Positions 16,362 through 31,811 of a DNA stretch of 64,000 nucleotides are shown piece after piece. The position numbers and the translations under genes are program-made. Source of the DNA: Archangium gephyra. Lineage in GTDB: Bacteria > Myxococcota > Myxococcia > Myxococcales > Myxococcaceae. Location: assembly GCF_001027285.1 (NCBI RefSeq), contig NZ_CP011509.1, positions 10,378,501 to 10,442,500 on the forward strand, given 5' to 3'. Positions within the stretch are counted from its first letter, which is position 1; the number at the start of each line of letters is the position of its first letter. A model generated the notes under the pieces. That model saw nothing but the letters and a program-made list of their open reading frames with translations. It searched no databases and had not been told where the DNA came from.

Positions 16362-17090
16362 TCAGGCCGCCTTGCCGCGCAGGGCCTCGCGCATGGCGCG
16401 GGGCTTGTTGGTGATGAGGTAGGAGACGCCCATCTCCTCCAGCTGCCGGGCACGCGTGGGGTCATCCACCGTCCACACCGCCACGCGCAGGCCCCGGCGG
16501 CGCCACTCCTCCACCCGCTCCGGCGTGCACTGCCCGTGGTAGGGGTGCACCGAGTGCGACGAGACGAGCGGCGTCACCACGTACGCCTGCGGCCCCCAGC
16601 GCTTGTCCGGATCGATGAGGAAGCCCCGGCGCAGCGACGGCGCGGCGGCCGCCGTCCGGAAGAGGCACAGCGGGTTGAAGCTGGAGATGACCACCCGCCC
16701 GGCCAGCCCGCGGCGCGTGACGAGCTCCGCCACCTTCTGGGACAGCCCCCCGTCATCCGCGTGGTCGCACTTGAGCTCGATGTTCACGAGGAAGTGCGAG
16801 GGCAGCGCGTCCAGCACCTCCTCGAGCAGCGGAATGCGCTCGGGCTTGAAGCCGAGCCGGCTGCCCACGTCCGCCCCCTTCAGCTTCCAATAGGACGTGG
16901 TGCGCACCTCCCAGGGCAGGCCGGCCAGCCGCTGCAGGTGCTCGTCGTGGCACACCACCACCTCGCCGGAGCCACACACCATCGCGTCCAGTTCCACGCC
17001 ATCGGCCCCCTGGGCCACGGCCTCCTGGAAGGCGGCGAGGGTGTTCTCCGGGGCATCGGCGCTGGCACCTCGGTGGGCGAGCAGGAGCAT
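16362..17090 (-). CDS. glycerophosphodiester phosphodiesterase
   Basis: A 242-residue GDPD-family TIM barrel that cleaves glycerophosphodiesters to glycerol-3-phosphate and an alcohol. Family residues are visible at the N-terminus: LAHRGASADAPENT, GVELDAMV and VVCHDEHLQR, which provide the His/Glu/Asp metal and catalytic set. It ends GVSYLITNKPRAM, the usual C-terminal strand of the family. The start was set at ATG 17090 because the barrel begins at once (MLLLAHRG); the 17-residue upstream extension to 17141 has no family character. No signal peptide, so cytoplasmic. Confidence 0.9.
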   Translation of the reverse strand: MLLLAHRGASADAPENTLAAFQEAVAQGADGVELDAMVCGSGEVVVCHDEHLQRLAGLPWEVRTTSYWKLKGADVGSRLGFKPERIPLLEEVLDALPSHFLVNIELKCDHADDGGLSQKVAELVTRRGLAGRVVISSFNPLCLFRTAAAAPSLRRGFLIDPDKRWGPQAYVVTPLVSSHSVHPYHGQCTPERVEEWRRRGLRVAVWTVDDPTRARQLEEMGVSYLITNKPRAMREALRGKAA

Positions 17091-17203
17091 GCCTCCCAAT
17101 GTGCAACAGCCCGGCCCCCAGGGCGAGCGTCCTGAAGCCACCCGCCGTCCAGGGGGCGACAGGCGGCTTGCCTCACCCCCGGCTTTGCTGCACTGTGCGC
17201 GGC

Positions 17204-17434
17204 ATGCTGGGGCTGCGGACCGGGGAGATTCTTTTCATTGGGTTCATCCTGGTGGTGGTGTTCTCCGCCGCCCGGATGGGTCAGCTCGGCAATGCCGTGG
17301 GCAAGTTCGTCTACTCGTTCAAGAAGGCCTCGAAGGGGGAGGATCTCGTGGACGTGAAGACGCTGCCCCGCTCCAAGCGCGGCCAGGACGTGTCCGACGC
17401 CGACTACACCGACTCCGGCCCCAAGCGCGGCTAG
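17204..17434 (+). CDS. tatA: TatA/E-type twin-arginine translocase subunit
   Basis: A 76-residue protein with a short N-terminus (MLGLRTGE), one membrane helix (about 8-22), the hinge and amphipathic helix (ARMGQLGNAVGKFVYSFKKA), and a charged tail. This is the TatA plan: it forms the pore-like part of the Tat pathway for folded proteins. The start at ATG 17204 was chosen over the longer frame from 17099, whose first 35 residues are unrelated to the family. No tatB or tatC is adjacent. Its 3' end overlaps the convergent gene by 4 bases. Confidence 0.85.
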   Translation: MLGLRTGEILFIGFILVVVFSAARMGQLGNAVGKFVYSFKKASKGEDLVDVKTLPRSKRGQDVSDADYTDSGPKRG

Positions 17435-18192
17435 TTCTTCGCGCCGGGCGTCGGCCCCCCCGCCAGCAGACGCTCGGCCTGCTCGCGCAGCGAGGGGTGC
17501 ACGGACGCGTCCCGGGCCAGCTCCTCCAGGTCATTCGCGTTGAGCAACGGGACGATCTTCACCCCCACCTCCGGCGGCAGGTATGGGTTGAAGACGAGCG
17601 CCCGGCGCACCCCGTGACGCGAGGACCAGCGCGGCGACTTCCAGATCTCCACCAGCGGCTCCGGACGGGCCGGACGGCGCGCCGCCATGCGCACCACCAG
17701 CGGCTCGGTGAGACGGGGATTGAGGAGCGCGTTGCGCACCACCGCCGGGTTGCTCGCCGTCACCAGACGCGCGAGCAGGTCCGGATCCCTCGTGAGCCGC
17801 GCCTGCTGCTTGAGGTGCCCCAGTGACTGGGTGAGCAGCTTCGCGTCCGCCTTGGCCGCCGCGCCCTCGTCGAACTCCTTGTGGGCCGGTGCCGTCTCGA
17901 AGAGATCCGCCACCGACTCCAGCGACTGCACCTCGGCCATGCGGCGCATGGAGTCCGCGTAGGGGATGCTCGCCGCCTCCCGGCCCAGCGCTGTCACGAA
18001 GGCCGAGAGCACGCAGGTGGCCGGCTCCCAGCCTCCCCGGGCCAGGAGGATGACCTCGTTGAGCAGCTCGTTCGCGTCGAGTGGATCCCGCCGCGCGAGC
18101 TCCCGCGCGGCGGCCTTGCGAACGATCTCCGCGCTCCCGCTCAGGGCGTGGAGCTTCTGGATGACGGTCTTGGTCTCCTCACGGCTGGCCAT
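17431..18192 (-). CDS. HEAT-like helical repeat protein, unknown function
   Basis: A 253-residue, almost all-helical cytoplasmic protein. From about residue 20 on it shows pairs of helices with patterns such as DPDLLARLVTASNPAVVRNALLNPRLTE and VHPSLREQAERLL, typical of HEAT/ARM-like scaffolds. No signal peptide or catalytic motif. Its start overlaps the end of the zinc-ribbon gene by 14 bases, so the two are probably one operon and act together. The function cannot be named from the sequence. Confidence 0.65.
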   Translation of the reverse strand: MASREETKTVIQKLHALSGSAEIVRKAAARELARRDPLDANELLNEVILLARGGWEPATCVLSAFVTALGREAASIPYADSMRRMAEVQSLESVADLFETAPAHKEFDEGAAAKADAKLLTQSLGHLKQQARLTRDPDLLARLVTASNPAVVRNALLNPRLTEPLVVRMAARRPARPEPLVEIWKSPRWSSRHGVRRALVFNPYLPPEVGVKIVPLLNANDLEELARDASVHPSLREQAERLLAGGPTPGAKN

Positions 18193-20431
18193 TGCCGGTG
18201 CTTCCCTCCTTCGCTCCTCCGCTGGCGACCGCCGTCTGCGGCTCGAGCGTCACCTCGAGCCGGAAGTTCGCCAGGTCCGAGGGGTACTCGTAGAAGAAGA
18301 CGACGAAGGGAGCCCGGGCCCCGGGAGCCACTTCCTTGGCGGCGGCGTCCAGGCGGGCCCGCAGCGTCTCGGCGTCCGCCGGGCTCGCGAGCTGGTAGAG
18401 CTCCTCGGGCGTGGGCACCGCGCCCGCGATGCCTTCCGCGGACTTCACCCGCTGATCTCCTTCGTACAGCGCGACGCCCGCCTTCACGCGGATGGCGGAG
18501 GTGCCACGGTTCTCCACCTCGCCGCGGACGAAGAAGAGGCTGTGCCCGGCCCCCGTCTCGTAGAGACCGTTGGACAGGTCCTTCGCCACCAGGGGCCGCG
18601 TGGGCGACACCAGCTCGCGCATGCGCGTGGGCGACAACTCCACCCGCCCATCGTTGAGCCAGGCCATGGCCACGGCGAGCAGGCCGACCACCAGCACCGC
18701 CGCCACCATGAACTGGGCGGCCACCGAGGCCAGACGCCGCGCCATGCCCGGACCCGAGCTCTCGCCAGACGCCTGTGCCACCTGGGGAGGCGTCGGCGCG
18801 GCGATCACCGGCGGCGGGGGCGCGGGCGGCAGATCCGCGAGCACCTCGCGGCCCGACGAGCCCTCGCCCGGCCCCGGGAAGTCCGGGAACGGGTTGCGCT
18901 CCGTGGGCGCGTTCGCCTTGGCGATGGGCGTGGCCGCGACCGTCTGCGGCGCACCCCAGTCCGGGATGCCCGACGGCGCGCCCTGCTGCGGAGCGCCCCA
19001 GTCCGGAATGCCCGAGGGCGGCGCCTGCTGCGGAGCACCCCAGTCGGGAATGGCCGAGGGCGCGGCGGGCGCGGGGCTCGGAGCGGGCGCCGGGGCCTTC
19101 GCGGAGGCAGCCGGAGGCAGTGCCGCCACCGGATCGAACGCGGCGAACGGGTTGCCCTCCATCCCACCGGAAGCCGGCGCGGAGGCCGGAGGCAGCGCCG
19201 CCACCGGATCGAACGCGGCGAACGGGTTGTTGCCGTCGAGCCCCTCCATCTCACCCGGCGTCGCGGAGGACACCGGGACGGGCGCGGCGCGGGCCGGCTT
19301 GGGGGCCGGCGCCGGCGCCGGCGGCTCGAACGAGACGAACGGGTTGTTGCCCTCGAGGCCCTCCATCTCCTCGTAGACCGGAGCCGTGGGCGTGGCCTGC
19401 ATCGTCGGCGCGTCGTCCGGCGGCAGGGAGAACGGATCCGGCTCCTCGTAGGACACCGGCGCGCTCTGGCGAGGCGCGGGCGCGGCACCGCGAGGCGGCA
19501 GCGTGGGCGTGGCTGGAACCGTCGGCGCGTCCTCGGGAGGCAGGGAGAACGGATCCGGCTCCTCGTAGGACACCGGCGCGGCGGCGCGAGGCGCGGGCGC
19601 GGGGCTCCGGGCCGGGACCTGCACGGGCACGGGCGCGGCGGCCTGGGCCGGCTTGGGCGCGGGCGGAGCGCTCCGGGCGGGCACGGGCGTGGGGGCCGGC
19701 TTGGGCGGCAGCGTGGGCACCGGGGCCGGGAGCGTCGCCTCCGTATCGGTCGCGCCGAACGGGTTGTTCTCGTCGAAGGAGAACGGAGCGCTGCTCACGG
19801 GCGCGAGCGCGGGGCTCTTCGCCGGCACCTGCACGGGAGGGCTCTTCGCTGGCACCTGCACGGGCGCGGCGGCCTGGGCCGGCTTGGGCGCTGGAGCCGC
19901 GGGCCGGGGAGGCTGGGCCGGTCCGGTCGCGAGTGCTCCGGCGGGCTTGTTCGGAATGGGAGCCTTGGCCGCGAGCTTGAGCGCCTCGGCGGGCGTGGGG
20001 GTGTTCTCCCCCATGAACTCCATCAAGGGGTCCAGGTCGATGGTCGCTGGAGTCTTGGGAGGCTCCAGCGAGGTGGCGCGTGGCAGCACGGAGGGGGCAC
20101 CCCCGCGAGGCGAGGCGACCCCCGGAACCGATGCGGCGCTCACGGGCCCATCGAAGAGGTTGTCCAGACCCGCGGGGCGAGCCGGGGCCTTCCCGGCGGG
20201 CGGGGCGGCCCGGGGGGCCTCGAGGGGCGTGCCCGCACGAGGTGTGGCCGGCGGCTTCGTGGCCGGGTCTGGGGAAGGCACAGCCGGGGCCGGCGCGGCG
20301 GACGCAGGGTCCTCGCGCACGACCTTGAAGGTGTGCTGACACTTCGTGCAGCGGACCTTGACCCCCTTGTCCGTCACCTTCTCATCGGGGATCTTGAACC
20401 GCGTCTGACACCGCTCACACTTGACGATCAT
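18179..20431 (-). CDS. MJ0042-type zinc-ribbon protein with Pro/Ala repeats, one TM helix and DUF3426-like tail
   Basis: A 750-residue protein. The N-terminus is an MJ0042-type zinc ribbon with Cys5, Cys8, Cys28 and Cys31. Residues about 40-565 are a low-complexity Pro/Ala region with internal repeats: YEEPDPFSLPP twice, NPFAAFDPVAALPP twice, and GIPDWGAPQQ three times. One membrane helix (about 568-590) is followed by a 160-residue DUF3426-like domain (beta-rich, ending before the 3' overlap). So the zinc ribbon is cytoplasmic and the tail probably periplasmic. Myxobacterial motility and polarity proteins often have such ribbons, but nothing here assigns that role. Confidence 0.75.
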   Translation of the reverse strand: MIVKCERCQTRFKIPDEKVTDKGVKVRCTKCQHTFKVVREDPASAAPAPAVPSPDPATKPPATPRAGTPLEAPRAAPPAGKAPARPAGLDNLFDGPVSAASVPGVASPRGGAPSVLPRATSLEPPKTPATIDLDPLMEFMGENTPTPAEALKLAAKAPIPNKPAGALATGPAQPPRPAAPAPKPAQAAAPVQVPAKSPPVQVPAKSPALAPVSSAPFSFDENNPFGATDTEATLPAPVPTLPPKPAPTPVPARSAPPAPKPAQAAAPVPVQVPARSPAPAPRAAAPVSYEEPDPFSLPPEDAPTVPATPTLPPRGAAPAPRQSAPVSYEEPDPFSLPPDDAPTMQATPTAPVYEEMEGLEGNNPFVSFEPPAPAPAPKPARAAPVPVSSATPGEMEGLDGNNPFAAFDPVAALPPASAPASGGMEGNPFAAFDPVAALPPAASAKAPAPAPSPAPAAPSAIPDWGAPQQAPPSGIPDWGAPQQGAPSGIPDWGAPQTVAATPIAKANAPTERNPFPDFPGPGEGSSGREVLADLPPAPPPPVIAAPTPPQVAQASGESSGPGMARRLASVAAQFMVAAVLVVGLLAVAMAWLNDGRVELSPTRMRELVSPTRPLVAKDLSNGLYETGAGHSLFFVRGEVENRGTSAIRVKAGVALYEGDQRVKSAEGIAGAVPTPEELYQLASPADAETLRARLDAAAKEVAPGARAPFVVFFYEYPSDLANFRLEVTLEPQTAVASGGAKEGSTGNGQP

Positions 20432-20580
20432 TCAGGGCTCGGCCGGTCCGGGAGTATAGGCGCAGAGGGGCGGCACCGCGAGCATGCCTCCACCCGGCTT
20501 GCCCGCCCCCCACCCCTCTGCTACAGGCTTCTGTCCCACACCGTGTGCTCAAGCATCCGCAGTGGGCGGGGAACGAGATT

Positions 20581-21231
20581 ATGAGCGAGCCAGAGCAGGC
20601 AGGCGTGCCGGGCAAGGAGCCCAAGGTCATCAAGCGGTACACCAACCGCAAGCTCTACGACACCGTCGAGAGCCGGTATGTGACCCTGGATGAGATCGCC
20701 GCAATGATCAAAGACGGGGTGGAGGTCCAGATCGTCGACAACCGGACGAAGGAGGACCTCACCTCGGTCACGCTGGCGCAGATCATCTTCGAGGAGGAGA
20801 AGAAGCGGAACCGGATGCCGCTGACGGTGCTCCGGGAGATCATCCGCCACCCGGGCGAGTCGCTGACGGGCTTCATCCAGAAGGAAGTCACCCCGCGGGT
20901 GGCCTCCATCCGGGAGGAGGCCGAGTCGCGGCTGGACAAGCTGCTGAGGCGCGAGAAGGAGGACGGCACGGAAGAGGCCGCGCCCCCGTCCGCCGAGCAG
21001 CCGGCCGAGCAGCAGGACGCCAACGCGCCAGGAGGCCCGGCGGAGCTGCTCAAGGCGAGCCAGCGGGCGCTGGAGGACTGGCAGCGGAAGATCGACGAGC
21101 GGGTGAAGCACGCCGTGGAGAACCTGGCGGGCAACCTGCCGGCGCTGGGCCGCGACATGGCGGTGCTGACGCAGCGGCTGGAAGAGCTCGAGAAGAAGCT
21201 GGACGAGCTCGAGAAGAACAAGCAGCAGTAG
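20581..21231 (+). CDS. polyhydroxyalkanoate-accumulation-type regulator (PHB_acc N-domain)
   Basis: A 216-residue protein. Residues about 8-70 match the PHB/PHA accumulation regulator DNA-binding domain: KVIKRYTNRKLYDTVESRYVTLDEIA and VQIVDNRTKEDLT. The family member PhaR represses phasin genes and binds PHA granules. The rest is acidic, then a coiled-coil (about 160-216, ending LEELEKKLDELEKNKQQ). The start at ATG 20581 was chosen over the upstream GTG 20545 because the domain begins there. A gene for a phasin-like protein lies 3 kb away at 24012-24317, so a granule-related network is possible. Myxobacteria are better known for lipid bodies, so the true target is open. Confidence 0.8.
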   Translation: MSEPEQAGVPGKEPKVIKRYTNRKLYDTVESRYVTLDEIAAMIKDGVEVQIVDNRTKEDLTSVTLAQIIFEEEKKRNRMPLTVLREIIRHPGESLTGFIQKEVTPRVASIREEAESRLDKLLRREKEDGTEEAAPPSAEQPAEQQDANAPGGPAELLKASQRALEDWQRKIDERVKHAVENLAGNLPALGRDMAVLTQRLEELEKKLDELEKNKQQ

Positions 21232-21342: not shown

Positions 21343-21696
21343 TCACTTCGCCGGAGCGCGAGGGTGGGCCGCGTCCCAGGCCGCCACCACGCGCTTGGGA
21401 GCGATCCGCCGCCACGCCTCGACGAGCAGCTTGCCCAACAGCGCCCGGTCCACGCGCGCGAGCTCGACGCTCGTCCACCCCTGGTGCCCCCACGGCGTGA
21501 CGGCGAAGACCTCGGGCTGCAGCTTCACGAAGGCCTCCTGCTCCTCGAGGGACAGCTTGAGGACGGCGCGCTTCTCCTTCTCCCAGAGCGTCGCGAAGAT
21601 CTTCCCCCGCACCCGGAACGACGGCTTGTCGAAGTGCGCCTGCTCCTCGGCCTCGGGCAGCGACAGCGCCAGCTTCCGGACGTCGTTGGGAGTCAT
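21343..21696 (-). CDS. MmcQ/YjbR family protein
   Basis: A 117-residue YjbR/MmcQ-family protein with the double-wing fold pattern: a helical N-terminus LPEAEEQAHFDKPSFRV, the strand IFATLWEKEKRAVLKL, and a central GHQGWTSVELA. The family is often annotated DNA-binding, but its role is poorly known. Its start overlaps the antiporter stop by 4 bases (ATGA), so they are co-translated. Confidence 0.8.
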   Translation of the reverse strand: MTPNDVRKLALSLPEAEEQAHFDKPSFRVRGKIFATLWEKEKRAVLKLSLEEQEAFVKLQPEVFAVTPWGHQGWTSVELARVDRALLGKLLVEAWRRIAPKRVVAAWDAAHPRAPAK

Positions 21697-22997
21697 GCCT
21701 TGGCCTCCTTCTGGGCCTGGCGGCGCTCGTAGCGCTGCATCAGGGGCGTCACCGAGATGCCATGCACCACGATGGAGATGGCCACCACGGTGAGCACGAA
21801 GGGCACCAGCCGGTGCGCCAGCGACTCGTCCAGGCCATGACCGAGCGCATAGAAGAGATAATAGAGCGAGCCGATGCCCCGGATGCCGAACCAGCTCATC
21901 AGCCAGCGCTGGGAGCGTGAGGTGCGTGTGCCGGCGAGCGTGACGAGCACGACGGCGGGCCGGATGACGAGGAAGAGCAGCGGGGTGAACCAGAGCGCCT
22001 CGGACGGCAGCTTCAAGCCCGCCAGGAGGATGCCGAGCACCAGCACGAGACTCACCTCGCCCAGGCGCTCGAGCTGCTCGTTGAAGTCGAGCACCGCGTT
22101 GGCCATGTAGGCCGGGGCATGCTCCGGGTCGGTGGCCGCATCCGGCGAGGCGCGGGCGTGCGCGAGCACCTCCTCTGGAGGCTTGCCCGCGTTGGAGCGC
22201 TTCTCGATGCGCCGCAGCGCGAGCCCGGCGGCGAACACGGCGAGGAAGCCATAGGCGTGCACCAGCAGCGCCAGCCCATAGGAGAGCGAGATGAGCCCCA
22301 GGGCGAGGAAGTCATCCAGCCCCACGGCCTCGCGGTGGGTGCGCCGCAGGTAGAGCACGAGCCGTCCGACGGCGCCTCCCAGCAACGTGCCCACACCGAG
22401 CCCCGCCACCACGGCCCACAGCACATCCACCACCACCCAGCGCCACAGCCCCTCGCCCAGCGGGTGAAGCCCGAGCAGGCCCAGGCCGAGCATCACGAAG
22501 GGAAAGGCGGTGCCGTCATTGAAACCGGCCTCGCCGGTGAGTCCGAAGCGCAGGGCATCCCGCTGCAGGGGGTGCACCATCTGCACGTCCGAGGCGAGCA
22601 CGGGATCCGTCGGCGCGAGCACCGCGCCCAGCAGCACGGCCGCGCCCAGGGGCAGCCCCAGCCACCCCACGCCCACGGCGGTCACGAGCCCCACGGTGAG
22701 CGCCATCGCCAGGAAGGCGAGCCGCACGGCGATGCGCCACTGTGGGTCCTTGAAGGGCGCTCGCAGCTTCAAGCCCGCGGTGAAGAGGGAGATGAGCACG
22801 CCCACCTCCGTGAGGCGCTCGAGCAGCGCCGCCTGCGCATAGGCATCGAGCCGGCCGAGGCCCACGCGGCCCAGGACGAAGCCCACCACCAGGTAGAGCA
22901 GCGAGGTGGACAGGGGCAGGCGCTTGAGCACCGAGCCCCCCAGCGACATGCCGACGAGGAGCGCGCCGGCCACGATGAACCACACCGTCATCTGCAT
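21693..22997 (-). CDS. Na+/H+ antiporter, CPA1/NhaP type
   Basis: A 434-residue integral membrane protein with about 12 hydrophobic helices. The CPA1 ion-binding signature is present as LAPTDPVLASDVQ, followed by LTGEAGFNDG. These proteins exchange Na+ or K+ for H+ across the inner membrane. The C-terminus is short, without a TrkA-type tail. Together with the downstream YjbR gene it forms a two-gene unit. The 191-bp upstream gap holds nested inverted repeats. Confidence 0.88.
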   Translation of the reverse strand: MQMTVWFIVAGALLVGMSLGGSVLKRLPLSTSLLYLVVGFVLGRVGLGRLDAYAQAALLERLTEVGVLISLFTAGLKLRAPFKDPQWRIAVRLAFLAMALTVGLVTAVGVGWLGLPLGAAVLLGAVLAPTDPVLASDVQMVHPLQRDALRFGLTGEAGFNDGTAFPFVMLGLGLLGLHPLGEGLWRWVVVDVLWAVVAGLGVGTLLGGAVGRLVLYLRRTHREAVGLDDFLALGLISLSYGLALLVHAYGFLAVFAAGLALRRIEKRSNAGKPPEEVLAHARASPDAATDPEHAPAYMANAVLDFNEQLERLGEVSLVLVLGILLAGLKLPSEALWFTPLLFLVIRPAVVLVTLAGTRTSRSQRWLMSWFGIRGIGSLYYLFYALGHGLDESLAHRLVPFVLTVVAISIVVHGISVTPLMQRYERRQAQKEAKA

Positions 22998-23188: not shown

Positions 23189-24001
23189 TCAGGCCACGCG
23201 GGAGGCCTTCTTCCCGCGCCTGGCGGCCTTGGCGGGCGCCCCGTCGAAGATCTCCGTGGCGATGGCGGCGAGCATCCGGGCGCCGGTGCTGCTCGGGGCG
23301 TACTCCCAGATGGTCTTCCCGTGGCTCTGCGCCTCATCCACCTTGACGTTGTAGCCCAGCGGCGTGGCGGCGAGGGTCTCAGGGAAGTAGGCCTTGAGGC
23401 GCTCGAGAATGGCGGTGGCGAGCGCGGTACGGCGGTACAGGGTGGGCACCACCTTGGTGATGCGCAAGCCGGGACGGCCCTCGGTCTCGGCGACCTGACG
23501 CACGGTGTCGGCCACCTCGGCGCACCCGTCGAGCGCGAAGTACGTGAGGGCCACGGGCACCACCACCTCGGTGGCGGCCACGAGGATGTTGCGCGTGGTG
23601 ATACCCATGGAGGGCGGCGCGTCGAAGACGATGACGTCGAAGCCGGCGGCCTCCGCGGCCTCGAGCCGCTCGGAGAGCCGGTGCGCGCGGCGCTCGTCCG
23701 GGGCCACCACCAGGGGGAAGTCCGCCATCTCCTTGTAGGCGGGCAGGACGGACAGGCCCTCGACGGCCGAGGGATGCACCACATCCTCCAGGCGCACGGC
23801 CGGGTCGGTGAGCAGGTGGAAGACGTTGCGCGGCAGGGTGCGCACGTCCAGGCCGAGCGACTTGCCCGCGTGCCCCTGCGTGTCCAGGTCCACCAGCAGG
23901 ACCTTCAGCCCGCGCTCCCGCGCGAGCCACGCCGCGGTGTTGACCGCCAGCGTCGTCTTGCAGGTGCCACCCTTCTCGTTGATGAAGGCGATGCGCCGCA
24001 T
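23189..24001 (-). CDS. ParA/MinD-family ATPase
   Basis: A 270-residue ParA-type ATPase. It has the deviant Walker A NEKGGTCKTT with Lys10 and Lys15, the Walker A' aspartates Asp38 and Asp40 (LLVDLDTQG), and a later VIVFDAPPSMG Walker B-like motif. Such ATPases place DNA, protein clusters or organelles by patterning on the nucleoid. No parB gene or parS-like site lies next to it, so it is probably an orphan positioning ATPase rather than the chromosome-partition copy. It begins 10 bases after the phasin-like gene on the same strand, which makes that protein the likely partner. Confidence 0.9.
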   Translation of the reverse strand: MRRIAFINEKGGTCKTTLAVNTAAWLARERGLKVLLVDLDTQGHAGKSLGLDVRTLPRNVFHLLTDPAVRLEDVVHPSAVEGLSVLPAYKEMADFPLVVAPDERRAHRLSERLEAAEAAGFDVIVFDAPPSMGITTRNILVAATEVVVPVALTYFALDGCAEVADTVRQVAETEGRPGLRITKVVPTLYRRTALATAILERLKAYFPETLAATPLGYNVKVDEAQSHGKTIWEYAPSSTGARMLAAIATEIFDGAPAKAARRGKKASRVA

Positions 24002-24011
24002 GGAGGGCCCT

Positions 24012-24317
24012 CTACTTCTTCTTCTGGGCCGCGGCCGTCAGCGTGTCCAGCTTGGATTCCACCGAGGACAGCAGCCGCTCCAGGTCATCCACCTTGTTGC
24101 GCAGCTGCTCCACGTCCGCGCTGGAGGGCAGGTTCATCGCCGACAGCGCCGAGCGCAGCGCACCGTCCAGCGTGCCCTTGGCCGCCAGCGAGCGCGACAC
24201 CAGCGTCTGCACCGCGGCCACGAACTTCTCGTTGGACATCAGCTGCTGCGCCAGCTTGCCGGCGCGCTCCTCGCCGGTCTCGACGAGCTTCTTCACCACG
24301 GGATTGTCTTTGAGCAT
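24012..24317 (-). CDS. phasin-like coiled-coil protein
   Basis: A 101-residue protein, no signal peptide. The N-terminal half is amphipathic helix (KLAQQLMSNEKFVAAVQTL). The second half has the phasin/PhaF-type layout: a helix ending in ALSAMNLPSSADVEQL, then a heptad coiled-coil of about 35 residues (VDDLERLLSSVESKLDTL) and a lysine tail. Phasins coat storage granules; small coiled-coil partners also connect ParA-family ATPases to cargo. It is first of a two-gene unit with parA. Start ATG 24317 is preferred over TTG 24329. The family call is by pattern only. Confidence 0.65.
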   Translation of the reverse strand: MLKDNPVVKKLVETGEERAGKLAQQLMSNEKFVAAVQTLVSRSLAAKGTLDGALRSALSAMNLPSSADVEQLRNKVDDLERLLSSVESKLDTLTAAAQKKK

Positions 24318-24482: not shown

Positions 24483-25403
24483 ATGGCCGGCCTGCTCGAC
24501 AAGAGGGTGTGGATCGTCTCTGGTAAGGGTGGCGTGGGCAAGAGCACCATCGCCGCGGCGCTGGCGTTGCGCTCGGCGCGCGCCGGCAGGCGTACCCTGG
24601 TGTGTGAAATCAACACCCAGGAGCGCATCAGCCGCCTGCTCGGGCATCAGCCCGTGGGCCCTGAAGTGACGAAATTGGAGGACAACCTCTGGGCGGTGGA
24701 CGTGCGCCCCCAGGAGGCCATGCGCGAGTACGCGCTCATGGTCCTGCGCTTCGAGACCCTCTACAAGACGGTCTTCGAGAACAAGGTGGTGCGCTACTTC
24801 CTGCGCTTCATCCCCTCGCTGCAGGAGCTGGTGCTGCTGGGGAAGATCCTCTACCACGCCCAGGAGAAGCGGCCGGATGGCAAGCCCTTGTGGGACACGC
24901 TCGTCATGGACGCGCCGGCCACGGGCCACGCCATCACCTTCCTGCGGGTGCCGCAGGTGCTGCTGCAGACGCTGCCGCCCGGGCCCATGACCCGCGAGGC
25001 CATGAAGATGCGTGACATCCTGGAGGACCCGGCGACGACGGCCGCGGTGCTGGTGTCGCTGCCCGAGGAGCTGCCGGTGAACGAGACGCTGGAGCTGCAC
25101 GCGGCCCTGCGGGACCAGGTGAAGGTGCGCACGCACGCGGCGGTGCTGAACGCGGCCTTCCACGAGCGCTTCACCGAGGATGACCTGGAGGCGCTGGTGG
25201 ACCAGCCGGAGCTGCTGCGGGTGGCGCGCTCGCACCATGACCGGGCGGCGCAGACGGTGCTCGCGGAGATGAAGCTGGAGCGCAACCTGCACGTGCCGGT
25301 GTACCAGGTGCCCCGCATCTTCACGCCGGGCTTCGATCGCTCGGCCATCGAGCAGGTGATGGGACACCTGGAGCCCCTGGTGACGGGGAAGGCAGGGGCA
25401 TGA
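24483..25403 (+). CDS. ArsA/GET3-like ATPase, subunit with intact KGG motif
   Basis: A 306-residue ATPase of the ArsA family. The P-loop is SGKGGVGKST with both the signature Lys15 and Lys20, and VMDAPATGHAITFLRVP is a switch II-like DAPxTGH motif. ArsA/GET3 proteins are ATPases for arsenite pumps or tail-anchored protein targeting. It lacks the second ArsA half and the cysteines of a metalloid site, so arsenic resistance is unlikely. It resembles one subunit of the actinobacterial paired ArsA-like ATPases (Rv3679/Rv3680 type). ATG 24483 was chosen; ATG 24429 in the same frame is a less likely alternative. Its stop overlaps the next start (ATGA). Confidence 0.85.
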   Translation: MAGLLDKRVWIVSGKGGVGKSTIAAALALRSARAGRRTLVCEINTQERISRLLGHQPVGPEVTKLEDNLWAVDVRPQEAMREYALMVLRFETLYKTVFENKVVRYFLRFIPSLQELVLLGKILYHAQEKRPDGKPLWDTLVMDAPATGHAITFLRVPQVLLQTLPPGPMTREAMKMRDILEDPATTAAVLVSLPEELPVNETLELHAALRDQVKVRTHAAVLNAAFHERFTEDDLEALVDQPELLRVARSHHDRAAQTVLAEMKLERNLHVPVYQVPRIFTPGFDRSAIEQVMGHLEPLVTGKAGA

Positions 25404-26572
25404 ACGCGCTCTCCGAGGCCTTGAAGACGAAGCGCGTGCTGGTGTGTGTCGGCTCGGGAGGCGTGGGAAAGACGACCATCTCCGCGACGCTGGCGCTGCG
25501 CTCGGCGGTGGATGGGCGCACCAGCCTGGTGTGCACCATCGACCCGGCCAAGCGGCTGGCCAACTCGCTGGGGCTCAACGCCCTGGGCAACGTGGAGGCC
25601 GAGGTCCCCGCCTCCGCCCTGGAGCCCCTGGGCGTCAAACCCCGGGGCCGGCTCCACGCGATGATGCTGGACATGAAGCAGACGTGGGACGACCTCATCC
25701 TCAAGTACGCCCCACCGGACAAGCGCGAGAAGATCCTCTCCAACCGCTTCTACCAGTCGCTCTCCAGCGCGCTCGCGGGCAGCCAGGAGTACATCGCGAT
25801 GGAGAAGCTGTGGGAGCTGCGCACCAAGCGCGACTACGAGCTCATCGTGCTCGACACGCCGCCCACGGCGCACGCGCTGGACTTCCTCGAGGCGCCCAAC
25901 CGGGTGCTGGACTTCCTCGACAACGAGGCGGCCAAGTGGCTGCTCACGCCGGCGCTGGCGGCGGGCCGGATTGGGCTGTCCCTGTTCAGCCTGGGCAGCA
26001 GCTACGCGGCGAAGACGATCTCCAAGTTCACCGGCACGGAGACGCTGCAGGAGCTGGCGGCCTTCATGATGGCCATCGCGCCGATGAACGAGAGCTTCCG
26101 GGAGCGGGCGCGCGGGGTGCGCGAGCTGCTGGAGGCGAAGCAGACGGGCTTCGTGCTGGTGACGAGCCCGGGCCGCGAGCGGCTGGACGAGGTGATGCAC
26201 TTCCACCGGCTGCTCAAGCAGAACGAGATGGACGTGGTGGCGGTGGTGGTCAACCGCGTGCACCCGATGCCGGGAGCGCAGCTGTGGGAGGAGATGCGGA
26301 GCCTCATCCCGGCGCGGCGAGCGAAGATGGAGCAGACGCTGCGGGAGCTGACGCTGCTGGCGGAGCAGGACGCCCGGGGCATCGCCGAGCTGCAGGCGGC
26401 GGTCGGGAACACGCCGCTCATCCAGGTGCCGCGCTTCGAGCTGGACGTGCATGACATCGGGGCGCTGTGGCGGACGGGACGCTACCTGATTGGAGAAGAA
26501 GTGATTCCCGGCCCCACTTCCCCTCTCCCCTCGGGAGAGGGACGGGGTGAGGGTTCCAGTCCCCCGGGTTGA
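25400..26572 (+). CDS. ArsA/GET3-like ATPase, partner subunit lacking the signature Lys
   Basis: A 390-residue ATPase, co-translated with the previous gene (4-base overlap). The P-loop reads GSGGVGKTT: Lys24 is present, but the KGG signature lysine is replaced by Ser19. Switch-type motifs include LDTPPTAHALDFL, and the middle (SNRFYQSLSSALAGSQEY, then MEKLWEL) matches the Rv3680-like subunit pattern. The last about 18 residues (PLPSGEGRGEGSSPPG end) are encoded by a dispersed palindromic repeat at 26520-26554, so the native C-terminus probably ended near residue 372. A heterodimer with the upstream subunit, one catalytic lysine donor, is the likely state. Confidence 0.85.
   Translation: MNALSEALKTKRVLVCVGSGGVGKTTISATLALRSAVDGRTSLVCTIDPAKRLANSLGLNALGNVEAEVPASALEPLGVKPRGRLHAMMLDMKQTWDDLILKYAPPDKREKILSNRFYQSLSSALAGSQEYIAMEKLWELRTKRDYELIVLDTPPTAHALDFLEAPNRVLDFLDNEAAKWLLTPALAAGRIGLSLFSLGSSYAAKTISKFTGTETLQELAAFMMAIAPMNESFRERARGVRELLEAKQTGFVLVTSPGRERLDEVMHFHRLLKQNEMDVVAVVVNRVHPMPGAQLWEEMRSLIPARRAKMEQTLRELTLLAEQDARGIAELQAAVGNTPLIQVPRFELDVHDIGALWRTGRYLIGEEVIPGPTSPLPSGEGRGEGSSPPG
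26520..26554 (+). repeat. dispersed palindromic repeat, copy D inside a coding end
   Basis: A 35-bp core repeat that provides the C-terminal codons of the second ArsA-like gene; its extension to the TGA at 26572 matches copy E at 29826. Together D and E flank the ELWxxDGT gene. Confidence 0.85.
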
Positions 26573-26675
26573 GCCCTTCCCCTCGGATCCTCCAAAGTAC
26601 GCCCCACCTCGAGGATCGCGACAGGTCCCGATGGAGACACGCCGCGAGCACGCGGCGTGGAGAGGGAATCCGAAC

Positions 26676-29600
26676 ATGCAGAGGAGGAGATACCCAGGTC
26701 CCGAGGCCATCCTGTTGGCCCTTCTGACGGGACTGATAGCCGGGTGTGCGCCGTCCCAGCCCACCGGTCCGGACGAGACCCAACTCCAGGAACGCCACCA
26801 GCGCCTATCCGGCAGCGAGCCGTATCTGGTGCGCGACCTCAATCCCACGGGGCAGGGCTCGCGGCCCGATGGAGGAGCCGTGGCCGCCCAGGACCGGGTC
26901 TTCTTCGCCCGCAACGCCGCGGAGTCGGAGCTGTGGAAGAGCGACGGCACGCAGGCGGGCACGGTGCTCGTGAAGCGATTCCAGTACGATCAATACAAGC
27001 TCCAACTCCTCAGCGCCATGGAGGGCACGGTGTTCTTCCAGGACCTCCTCCACTCCACCTTGTGGAAGAGCGACGGCACCGAAGCCGGCACGGTGCGCCT
27101 CACGCCTGTGAATCACTCTACCAACATGGGCAACCTTCCCCTGGTGCGGGACTCGGCGGTGCTGAACGGCCGACTCTATCTGCTCACCGCCACCTCGCTC
27201 TGGGTGAGCGATGGCACGGCGACCGGCACCGTGTCCATCAAGACCCTCCCAGTCGACAGCACATCCCCCTCTGGCCGGCTGGTGGCCGCCAATGGCCTGC
27301 TCTTCTTCACCGTCTATCCCCCGAGTGGTGGCGCCGAACTATGGAAGAGCGACGGTACAGCGGCAGGCACGGCGCGGCTCAAAGCCATCTCGAACGAGCC
27401 AGTCCTCTCCCGCGCCTCCACTCACGAGTTGGTGGCCCTCAACAGCACCCTCTTCGTCACCGCCTATTCCGACAGCCTTTGGAGCCTCTGGAAGAGCGAC
27501 GGCACGGTGGATGGCACCGTCATCCTCCAGGACGGACTTCCCTCCATCGGCGGCCTGACGATCTCGAATGGGCGGCTCTACTACGAAACCACCAGCGCTC
27601 TGTGGACGACGGATGGAACGAAGGACGGGACGCGGAGCCTCACGAGCCGCGCTGTCACCACCAACAGCCTGATGGCCACGAGCGGAGGTCTCGTCTTCTC
27701 CCTCTACCAGGACGATACCGGCGTGACGCTGTGGCGCAGCAACGGGACGGTGGCTGATACGACGCCATTGGCAGACCCCTGCCCCGGCAGCACCCATGGG
27801 TCCCCGGCCCGCCTGGCAGGTGTGAATGGTGTGGCGTTCTTCTCCCTTTCCTGCGGAACCGCTCATACCGGGCTGTGGAAGAGTGATGGCACGGCGAGCG
27901 GCACGAGGCGTGTGACGGACACCTCCCTCTGGACTGGTGACAACAGTACGCCCACTCCCACTGGCACCATCTCGGTGGACATGGGCGGGACACTCTTCTT
28001 CTGGGCCGATGATGATCGACACGGCCTCGAGCCGTGGAAGAGCGACGGCACGGCGAGCAGCACGGTTCTCGTGCGCGACATCATTCCCACCCCGGCGAGC
28101 TCCAATCCGCATGACTTCGTGGCGATGGGCGGCTCGGTCTTCTTCACGGCGGAGGATAGCCGCAATGGCCTGGGACTCTGGAAGAGCGATGGCACGGCGG
28201 ACGGGACAGTGCGCTTGACGAGCCTCTCCCCGTGGGACAACACCGCCTTGCTGACCCCCGTCAACGGTACACTCTTCTTCGCCCAGCACAGCGGCCAGTT
28301 GTGGAAGAGCGATGGGACGACAGCAGGCACGCTGAAGGTCAGATCCTTCACGCCCAGCATGGGCTCCGACGTGAAGCTCCTCGCGTTGACCGACTTCGGC
28401 GGAACGCTCTTCTTCGCCCTCCAGGACGATGGCCGCACGGAACTCTGGAAGAGCGATGGGTCGGAGGCCGGCACGATGCGTGTAAAGGAGTTGCCGCGCA
28501 TCAGCATGGAGGAATTGCCGAACTCCGGTAAAGAGACACAAGTCGCCTACCCAAGGGTCGTGAACGGAAGCCTCTTCTTCATCGTGGGCTATCCCGCGGA
28601 AAACATGGAGCTGTGGAAAAGCGATGGAACGGAGGCCGGCACGGTGCGCGTGAAGACCCTGTTCAACGGTTACTCCAGATTCTGGACTTGGATGCACTCA
28701 GTGGCGGTGGCGGACGGGAAGTATTTCGCGCTCATCGGCTCGGATCTGTGGATGAGTAATGGAACCGAAGCCGGCACCACCCTGCTCACGAATGTCATGG
28801 AGCGAGTCCACCCCATAGCGCTCGCGGAGGCGAACGGAACGCTCCTGCTGCTCTCCTCCGAGACAAACTCACGCGGCGATAGCGACATTGGGCTGTGGAA
28901 GAGCAACGGAATGGCGGGGGGAACGACCCGGCTTCGCACGCTCTTCTCTAAAGCCAACCAGCTGGTAGGCTTCCTTTACAGCGCCAATGTGAGGGGAAGG
29001 CAATACCTCATCCTCTACTCCCCCGAGCGCAAGGACTACGAGCTGTGGCGCAGCGATGGGACGGCGGAGAGCACGAGCTTCGTGTATCCCATGGAACTCA
29101 GCTCCAGCACCTCCACCGGACTGATTGACTTCGCGCCGCTCAGCCAGACCCCTCCGCTCTTCGCAGAAGTGGGCAAGCGGCTCTTGTTCGTGCGCAACGG
29201 GGGGCAGGGCCGGGAACTGTGGGCACTGCCGCTGGCTCCCGTCGATTGTCCATCCCCCGCCCTCGTGGTCCAGGCTTCAGGCCCAAACGGCGCCCACGTG
29301 GAGTTCCCTACCATCCGTCGGGCTGATGACGTCGACCCCGCCCTGTCCATTACCTACAGCCATGCCTCGGGGAGCCTGTTCCCGCTGGGGGACACCCCGG
29401 TGACGCTCACCGCGTCCCACCCGGCGTACCCGGCCAACACGTGCACCTTCTCCATCTCCGTCCGGGACTCGCTCGGCCCCACGGTGCAGTGTCCGGCGAA
29501 TCTCTCCGTGGACGCTCCGCTCGGCAAGGACGGTGTGAGCATCCAGTACCCGCCGGCCACGGCGGCGGACGCCGTGTCCACGCCGGTCCTGGAGTACAGC

Positions 29601-29813
29601 CACGCGTCCGGGAGCACCTTCCCCATCGGCATCACCACCGTGGAGGTCAAGGCGACGGACGCGGCCGGCAACGTCACCACCTGCGCCTTCAAGGTCGACG
29701 TCGCGCCTCCCCTCCAGCGGTGCGGCTGCGGCTCCACGTCGCCCGCCGCGGCCTTCGGCTGGTTGATGGTGCTCGTGCCGCTGGTGCTGCGCCGCCGTGG
29801 CGCACGGGGCTGA
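26676..29813 (+). CDS. ELWxxDGT-repeat lipoprotein with HYR domains and MYXO-CTERM-like tail
   Basis: A 1045-residue surface protein. Lipobox LIAGC gives Cys24 after a 23-residue signal. Residues about 60-840 hold 16 repeats of the ELWKSDGT.AGT type, a beta-propeller-like family common in myxobacteria, each blade near 40-50 residues. Two HYR domains follow (each with CTF/CAFK and SHASGS-type motifs), then a CGCGS..WLMVLVPLVLRRRG end that fits MYXO-CTERM surface sorting. Start ATG 26676 was chosen for the lipobox and GAGGG upstream; the track could also start at 26631. It has lower G+C and less strict third-position bias than neighbours and is flanked by copies D and E of the repeat. Adhesion or sensing is possible. 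Confidence 0.85.
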   Translation: MQRRRYPGPEAILLALLTGLIAGCAPSQPTGPDETQLQERHQRLSGSEPYLVRDLNPTGQGSRPDGGAVAAQDRVFFARNAAESELWKSDGTQAGTVLVKRFQYDQYKLQLLSAMEGTVFFQDLLHSTLWKSDGTEAGTVRLTPVNHSTNMGNLPLVRDSAVLNGRLYLLTATSLWVSDGTATGTVSIKTLPVDSTSPSGRLVAANGLLFFTVYPPSGGAELWKSDGTAAGTARLKAISNEPVLSRASTHELVALNSTLFVTAYSDSLWSLWKSDGTVDGTVILQDGLPSIGGLTISNGRLYYETTSALWTTDGTKDGTRSLTSRAVTTNSLMATSGGLVFSLYQDDTGVTLWRSNGTVADTTPLADPCPGSTHGSPARLAGVNGVAFFSLSCGTAHTGLWKSDGTASGTRRVTDTSLWTGDNSTPTPTGTISVDMGGTLFFWADDDRHGLEPWKSDGTASSTVLVRDIIPTPASSNPHDFVAMGGSVFFTAEDSRNGLGLWKSDGTADGTVRLTSLSPWDNTALLTPVNGTLFFAQHSGQLWKSDGTTAGTLKVRSFTPSMGSDVKLLALTDFGGTLFFALQDDGRTELWKSDGSEAGTMRVKELPRISMEELPNSGKETQVAYPRVVNGSLFFIVGYPAENMELWKSDGTEAGTVRVKTLFNGYSRFWTWMHSVAVADGKYFALIGSDLWMSNGTEAGTTLLTNVMERVHPIALAEANGTLLLLSSETNSRGDSDIGLWKSNGMAGGTTRLRTLFSKANQLVGFLYSANVRGRQYLILYSPERKDYELWRSDGTAESTSFVYPMELSSSTSTGLIDFAPLSQTPPLFAEVGKRLLFVRNGGQGRELWALPLAPVDCPSPALVVQASGPNGAHVEFPTIRRADDVDPALSITYSHASGSLFPLGDTPVTLTASHPAYPANTCTFSISVRDSLGPTVQCPANLSVDAPLGKDGVSIQYPPATAADAVSTPVLEYSHASGSTFPIGITTVEVKATDAAGNVTTCAFKVDVAPPLQRCGCGSTSPAAAFGWLMVLVPLVLRRRGARG

Positions 29814-30680: not shown

Positions 30681-31811
30681 ATGTTGGCCACCTGGCGCAA
30701 GTGGGTGTTGGTGGGAGTCCTGGGCCTGGTGGGGTGCCGGACGACGGGCACGGCGGTGCGCGAGACGCCGGAGACGCCCCGGCAGCAGGTGCAGTTCGAC
30801 CCCGTGACGGTGACGGCGGATCTGGAGCTGGCCTCGCTCAATGACGAGGAGCTGTTCGCCGGAGGCACGTCGGCCTTCGCGGCCAACGACTTCACCAAGG
30901 CGGCGCGCTACTTCGGCCGGCTGGTGGACTTCCACCCCCAGAGCAAGCACCGCGACGAGGCGCTCTACAACGCGGGCCTGGCCCACGAGCGGCTGGAGCA
31001 GTGGGAGGAGGCGTACCTGCGCTTCTCCGAGCTGGCGGACGCGGAGAAGGGCACCGGTGACGCGCTGGACGCGGCCTTCCGCATGGCCGAGACGCAGTAC
31101 CACCTGGAGCGCTTCGCGGAGGCCGCCAGGGTGCTGGGCACCATCGCCGGGCGCGCGGATCTGCCGGTGGGCAAGCGCCTGGAGGCCCAGGTGCAGCAGG
31201 GCGTGTGCGAGCTGGAGCTGGGGCAGAGCGAGAAGGCGGAGAAGACGCTGCGTCAGGCGCTCTCCACGTACGACTCCCTGGCGGACAAGGACGAGGTCGA
31301 GGACTACGTCCCGGGGCAGGCGCACTTCTTCATCGGGGAGATCTACCGGCAGCACTACGCCCAGGTGAAGCTGGACCCGGCCAAGGGCAGCGACGCGCTG
31401 GCGAACGACCTGAACTACAAGGCCGAGCTGCTGCTGTCGGCCCAGGGCAACTACCTGCGCGCCATCCGCGTGGGCAACGGCCACTGGGCGACGGCGGCCG
31501 GAGCGCAGATCGGCGCGATGTACGAGAACCTCTACGAGCACCTGGTGAACTCGCCGGCCCCGGCGGAGCTGGACGCGGAGGAGGCGGCCATCTACCGCGA
31601 GGAGGTGCGCAAGAAGGTGCGGATCCTGCTCACCAAGTCCATCAACATCTACGAGCGCACGCTGGAGGCGGCCGAGCGCATCGGCTCGCAGAACACGTTC
31701 GTGGACAAGACGCGCCAGAGCCTGGAGAAGATGAAGGCGCTGCTGCTCGCGGACACGGAGTCGGCGCCCGTCCCCGAGGACGAGTCCACCCAGTCCAAGC
31801 CGCACTCCTGA
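30681..31811 (+). CDS. TPR lipoprotein
   Basis: A 376-residue protein. Signal and lipobox LVGC give Cys19. A helical TPR array starts near residue 55 (GTSAFAANDFTKAARYFGRLVDFHPQ, then YNAGLAHERLEQWEEAYLRF) and continues to about 210 as six or seven repeats; helical ends follow to 355. Such lipoproteins sit on the outer membrane and scaffold complexes (BamD-like parts). It is not obviously BamD. The 192-bp divergent promoter space with endonuclease V holds no gene. Confidence 0.75.
   Translation: MLATWRKWVLVGVLGLVGCRTTGTAVRETPETPRQQVQFDPVTVTADLELASLNDEELFAGGTSAFAANDFTKAARYFGRLVDFHPQSKHRDEALYNAGLAHERLEQWEEAYLRFSELADAEKGTGDALDAAFRMAETQYHLERFAEAARVLGTIAGRADLPVGKRLEAQVQQGVCELELGQSEKAEKTLRQALSTYDSLADKDEVEDYVPGQAHFFIGEIYRQHYAQVKLDPAKGSDALANDLNYKAELLLSAQGNYLRAIRVGNGHWATAAGAQIGAMYENLYEHLVNSPAPAELDAEEAAIYREEVRKKVRILLTKSINIYERTLEAAERIGSQNTFVDKTRQSLEKMKALLLADTESAPVPEDESTQSKPHS

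Follow-up and report, generated by a model that had tools for sequence, protein, structure and literature searches.

The window analyzed here, a stretch of 64,000 nucleotides from the chromosome of Archangium gephyra, contains a gene for a small phasin-like coiled-coil protein, which we call CC, directly followed by a gene for a solitary ParA ATPase, and this pair suggests an undescribed way of positioning a cell component. The reading that we prefer, to which we give somewhat less than an even chance, is that the operon serves a surface protein of the phasin type, lies next to the gene of a PhaR-type regulator, and includes ParA as an optional distributor. CC would most likely coat some hydrophobic body or surface, or assemble there, and its amount would most likely be tuned by the adjoining regulator; in PHA producers, PhaR tunes the amount of phasin. 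In the lineages that keep ParA, this Soj-like ATPase most likely acts on the CC assemblies, and would use ATP-driven binding and release to spread them across the nucleoid. The genes of the locus are listed in Table 1.

Table 1. Genes of the locus and their neighbors in the window (positions count from the first nucleotide of the window).
Gene product	Position	Strand	Evidence and remarks
CC, 101-aa phasin/PhaE-like helical coiled-coil protein	24012..24317	-	ORF; PF05597 and TIGR01837 matches; AlphaFold2 helices
Solitary ParA ATPase, Soj-type fold, 270 residues	23189..24001	-	Subfamily motifs NEKGGTCKTT / TYxALDGCAE / DEAQSHG
BagA-like (ArsA/Get3-type) ATPase	24483..25403	+	Divergent from CC; NF053622, E 7.7e-41, 140.6 of 400 bits
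BagB-like (ArsA/Get3-type) ATPase	25400..26572	+	NF053621, E 2.4e-92, 309.9 of 521 bits
PhaR-type (PHB_acc_N) regulator with C-terminal coiled coil	20545..21231	+	Convergent with ParA/CC; PF07879, 94.5 bits against a cut-off of 25
TPR-type protein	30681..31811	+	Frequent downstream neighbor of BagAB; named from the ORF, without a family search
YjbR-like protein and Na+/H+ exchanger	21343..22997	-	Between PhaR and ParA; outside the conserved locus

Both genes of the pair are read from the minus strand, CC upstream (ATG at 24317, stop codon at 24012-24014) and ParA, which starts at 24001, after a gap of 10 bp, so that the first-pass annotation of this DNA had placed them correctly. Conservation of the pair across myxobacteria had been set beforehand as a check. 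Among 59 genomes of the order, its own included, CC was found in 58 (E<=0.001), with a score of >50 bits against the family profile in 56; the matches in G042 and G051 are weak, and none was found in G055. Orthologues of ParA (E<=1e-55) occur in 42 of the 59 genomes. In 41 of these, CC is the gene immediately upstream, read from the same strand as ParA, and the remaining locus (G055) ends at a contig edge. With two loci from outside this set of 42 genomes added to the 41, ParA and CC are co-directional in 43/43 cases, at distances of -1 to 176 bp, and they look like one operon. In G036 and G041 the pair is kept together away from both BagAB and PhaR. Of 58 named loci, which were selected for their similarity to CC and are thus biased toward near relatives, 56 have ParA, and one of the other two starts at a contig end within CC; this set includes Myxococcus xanthus AM003 (L164), which carries the full PhaR-ParA-CC-BagA-BagB-TPR locus. 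In a sample of 193 genomes of the phylum, CC was matched in 167 (1e-5), ParA in 121 (1e-55), and BagB in 176 (1e-40), although some of the weaker hits for CC probably represent other phasins, as in G076, G082, G086, G089, and G095, where CC is absent beside ParA. We also came across a record titled Comamonas sp. KCTC 72670 (BNCN01000001.1, L172) which is probably mislabeled or contaminated, as it holds a complete myxobacterial PhaR-ParA-CC-BagA-BagB-TPR locus at 70 to 84% identity.

ParA begins with MRRIAFINEKGGTCKTT, a stretch that carries Lys10 and Lys15 of the deviant Walker A motif. The motif had been described as intact; among the 54 aligned orthologues, Lys15 is kept in all 54 and Lys10 in 52, the other two having a T and a gap. 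The predicted structure (pLDDT 91.6) superimposes on the crystal structure of Helicobacter pylori Soj (6iub) with a Z score of 36.5 and an rmsd of 1.4 over 250 residues, and it matches McdA with a Z score of 31.9. Asp38 and Asp40 are present as in Soj/ParA proteins, Arg190 is found in 54/54 orthologues, and the motifs NEKGGTCKTT, TYxALDGCAE, VVPTLYRxT, and NVKxDEAQSHG are common to the orthologues with few exceptions. The PRNVR stretch of Thermus Soj is GYNVK here, a difference that counts against the preferred reading, although Arg190 is invariant; in Soj, stretches such as these carry arginines for nonspecific DNA binding. The window ParA is a distinct subfamily of the Soj fold. It was also said to have no parB nearby, and this is right, because the sole ParB_N match of the whole genome (PF02195, E<=0.001) is far off, at G000:C1:462388 (G000 being the window genome), where it adjoins another ParA homologue at 463059.

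The description of CC as a phasin-type protein stands, with the window protein taken singly scoring under the family cut-offs. PF05597 and TIGR01837 were each matched (E<=0.01) by all 32 CC sequences compared, that is, the one from the window and 31 from relatives picked for diversity, with the next Pfam family matching 8/32, but the window protein scores 25.4 of 28.8 bits for PF05597 and 24.4 of 94.7 bits for TIGR01837, in both cases under the curated cut-off. The PhaE model was matched by five of the 32 and the class IV synthase subunit by three. Profile comparison with HHalign gave a probability of 87.9 between CC and the PhaE-like gene beside the PHA synthase of the same genome, 95.9 between CC and a small PhaE-like protein in the pha region of a relative, and 14.9 between CC and the coiled coil of the neighboring PhaR-like protein. 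Judged by the matches to the phasin models, the resemblance is more than a generic coiled-coil match, and CC is a phasin/PhaE homologue. AlphaFold2 predicts helices at residues 6-28, 30-60, and 66-100 with moderate confidence (mean pLDDT 72.4, pTM 0.33). Given to Foldseek, this model of low global confidence had no matches in the PDB, and a PDB profile search with CC returned short coiled-coil matches with no phasin among them.

Charged disordered N termini are a feature of the partner proteins of ParA-type ATPases, according to the accessible part of PMC10241942. None is obvious in the CC model, in which five residues precede the first predicted helix and the helix from residue 6 has a pLDDT of 63 to 72; this counts against the preferred reading. 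Over its first 14 residues, CC carries a net charge of +1 to +3 in genomes with ParA (n=40) and of 0 to +3 in those without (n=14); the means of 1.75 and 1.0, slightly more basic with ParA, come from counts that ignore relatedness, and a ParA-specific signature at the N terminus was rejected and not used. Relaxation of CC after loss of ParA was likewise discarded, with mean residuals of +0.019 when one genome of a pair lacked ParA and +0.023 when both did, against a spread of 0.046. Evolution of CC in the three ParA-less genomes concerned seems to be at most slightly faster, with no clear change.

The pair usually stands within a larger arrangement, in which a PhaR-like regulator is followed by ParA, CC, and then the divergent Get3-like BagA/BagB pair. 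Among the 56 order loci with CC at >50 bits, a PhaR-like gene is present in 48 (47 times convergent with the pair, 33 times within 300 bp) and BagA also in 48 (divergent from CC in all 48, within 400 bp in 47), while 21 further CC loci of the phylum have PhaR in 15 (convergent 15/15) and BagA in 17 (divergent 17/17); stretches cut by contig ends lower all of these PhaR and BagA counts. The PhaR-type gene, which the first-pass annotation had named as a possible controller, is thus a conserved neighbor of the pair. In the window its end lies about 2 kb from ParA, with the YjbR-like and Na+/H+ exchanger genes intervening. Queries with these two genes had no matches in the stretches of 58 relatives compared, and here they were seen in the window genome only. 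The regulator contains the PHB_acc_N DNA-binding domain (PF07879, over the cut-off) and scores 88.5 of 109.45 bits for TIGR01848, under the equivalog cut-off. The divergent BagA/BagB-like pair, absent from the first-pass annotation, is a conserved neighbor as well.

Some genes around this locus deserve mention in their own right. Positions 26547-29813 of the window code for a 1,088-aa protein with many copies of an LWKSDGT-type repeat, and a protein of this type also adjoins BagB in G002 and G005, of the same genus, at 48 to 50% identity. On the other side, positions 16362-20431 hold GDPD, TatA-like, and HEAT-like genes and one for a long Pro/Ala-rich protein, and many of the stretches from the 58 relatives keep their order next to PhaR; the names were taken from the sequence, without family searches.

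A two-gene module for positioning cargo had been proposed from the window, and here the conserved, operon-like pair stands, while an obligate two-protein module was not supported, since either gene can be present alone. A search for ParA orthologues found none in 15 of the 56 order genomes with CC, one of which (G007) may be a contig-end artifact, and none beside CC in the BagA-holding loci of families f19, f22, f24, f29, and f31. In G111, CC adjoins PhaR with no ParA match, while ParA is present in G034, of the same genus. Of the 69 BagA+BagB loci on a quickly built tree, 39 have ParA and CC, 7 have ParA only, and 23 have CC only; that none has neither is by construction, as the loci were picked for having one of them. 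The minimum number of changes on this tree is at least nine for ParA and at least two for CC, rough counts given its long branches (G061, G101, and others). In G007, counted among the 23 CC-only loci, the contig starts within CC, and a ParA may be missing for this reason; when G007 is left out, the figure for ParA is at least eight.

Which body CC may coat is the point at which two rivals enter, and since both are narrower versions of the reading we prefer, their likelihoods overlap with its own. As a classical PHA module, the pair would consist of a phasin of PHA granules and a ParA that segregates them, which we regard as very unlikely. The window genome does code for a class III PhaC (TIGR01836, E 1.4e-96, 323.6 of 365.3 bits, at L123:8992-10644) with an adjoining PhaE-like gene, some 6.6 Mb from the window, and raw counts that ignore relatedness link ParA to PhaC both in the order (22/41 genomes with ParA and CC versus 2/15 with CC only, p 0.013) and in the phylum sample (70/121 with ParA versus 18/72 without). 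A PHA-specific reading of this link was nevertheless not adopted, as tree rows gave 24/46 versus 8/22 (p 0.30) and independent pairs were split, with 1.4 for and 0.6 against over 45 rows and 2.0 for and 1.6 against over 68 rows, too few to decide. With one query at E<=1e-20, in genomes several of which are drafts, a PHA synthase was matched in 26/59 genomes of the order and 88/193 of the phylum; it was found in 24 of the 56 order genomes with CC and not found in the other 32, nor in 19 of the 41 with both ParA and CC. Because most order genomes with CC have no detected PHA synthase, PHA is unlikely as a general cargo; it may have a role in some lineages and cannot be the cargo where the synthase is truly absent. 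If instead CC coated triacylglycerol lipid bodies that ParA spreads, a version we consider quite unlikely, the locus in AM003 would fit the triacylglycerides that M. xanthus makes in lipid bodies during development, as described in the accessible part of PMC4048283. Against it, a WS/DGAT domain (E<=0.001) was found in 34/59 order genomes, and a link of this wax-ester/TAG synthase to ParA was discarded at 25/41 with ParA versus 8/15 without (p 0.76), a count that covers the WS/DGAT route to TAG, and both PhaC and WS/DGAT went undetected in 14 of the 56 CC genomes. The PHA-like or lipid cargo put forward in the first-pass annotation was therefore not borne out.

The chief rivals leave the positioning role aside. 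BagAB may handle hydrophobic or membrane-bound client proteins, and CC, ParA, PhaR, BagA, and BagB could together form one wider system for such clients, in which CC works with BagAB and ParA is an accessory, not the mover of CC. The regular divergence of CC and BagA described above, its extension to other families of the phylum, and the seven loci in which a ParA without CC is divergent from BagA (six f13 genomes and G108 of f10) all argue for this possibility, which we place well short of an even chance. Against it stand 14 more BagAB loci, selected for a CC that is absent, weak, or elsewhere: in 13 of them, PhaR, ParA, and CC are all missing within about 6 kb (the 14th has a 16-bit CC-like trace only). 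It is also at odds with the location of ParA-CC apart from BagAB in G036, G041, and G047. The other chief rival is mere operon neighborhood, that is, a ParA with an unrelated task and no functional contact with CC, the two sharing an ancestral locus. That either gene can stand alone in this slot is consistent with it, as is the absence of a clear change in CC in the three ParA-less genomes, but the co-directional adjacency in 41/42 genomes, the small gaps, and the joint presence away from the rest of the locus speak against it, and we hold an explanation by neighborhood to be rather unlikely.

Compared with described systems, the pair resembles McdA/McdB in joining the gene of a small non-ParB protein to that of a ParA-type ATPase of similar fold. 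It differs in that the window ParA keeps Lys10, which McdA does not have according to the accessible part of PMC9178275, and in that CC is phasin-like and occurs without ParA. PhaF, PhaM, and PhaH are phasin-type proteins for which a link between a hydrophobic body and the nucleoid has been proposed; in contrast, as far as the accessible part of the 2025 review PMC13052382 goes, they bind DNA themselves and have no ParA homology, and an ATP dependence is not known for them. Homology to the phasins of TIGR01837/PF05597 and to PhaE extends over much of CC, which differs from these families in its scores under the cut-offs and in not being tied to a PHA synthase. With the Soj/ParA partition ATPases, the window ParA shares the fold, the Walker A lysines, and Asp38/Asp40, but it lacks a nearby parB, has its own motifs (TYxALDGCAE and DEAQSHG), and has PRNVR replaced. 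In PomXYZ of M. xanthus, too, a myxobacterial ParA/MinD-type ATPase has non-ParB partners, as is proposed here for ParA and CC. The best NCBIfam matches of the divergent pair are BagA and BagB of Mycobacterium tuberculosis, from which the window proteins differ in scoring under both equivalog cut-offs.

The first-pass annotation knew of no system with exactly this pair, and our literature search, with most subscription papers beyond its reach, agrees in that no ParA-phasin pair was described in what it covered. A phasin homologue and a ParA in one operon are a directly testable case. It is conceivable, if on the unlikely side, that a new ParA subfamily with a phasin homologue as its adaptor represents the first ATP-driven positioning of phasin-coated bodies, encoded next to a surface sensor of the PhaR type and a Get3-like pair, the body often not being PHA in this phylum. 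Should the pair turn out to have no positioning role, a PhaR-phasin-BagAB locus conserved in genomes where a PHA synthase is not found would still raise the question of what phasin homologues do outside PHA.

Other phasin-type genes were also observed. Two relatives (L124 and L131) have stretches with two PhaC-type genes and a PhaR-like gene of their own, in L124 also with a small PhaE/phasin-like gene, and pha stretches of this type are a possible source of a paralogous PhaR-phasin pair. Many order genomes, including some with no detected PHA synthase, code for a close pair of phasin-type genes elsewhere, and every one of the 59 has at least one PF05597 match (E<=0.001).
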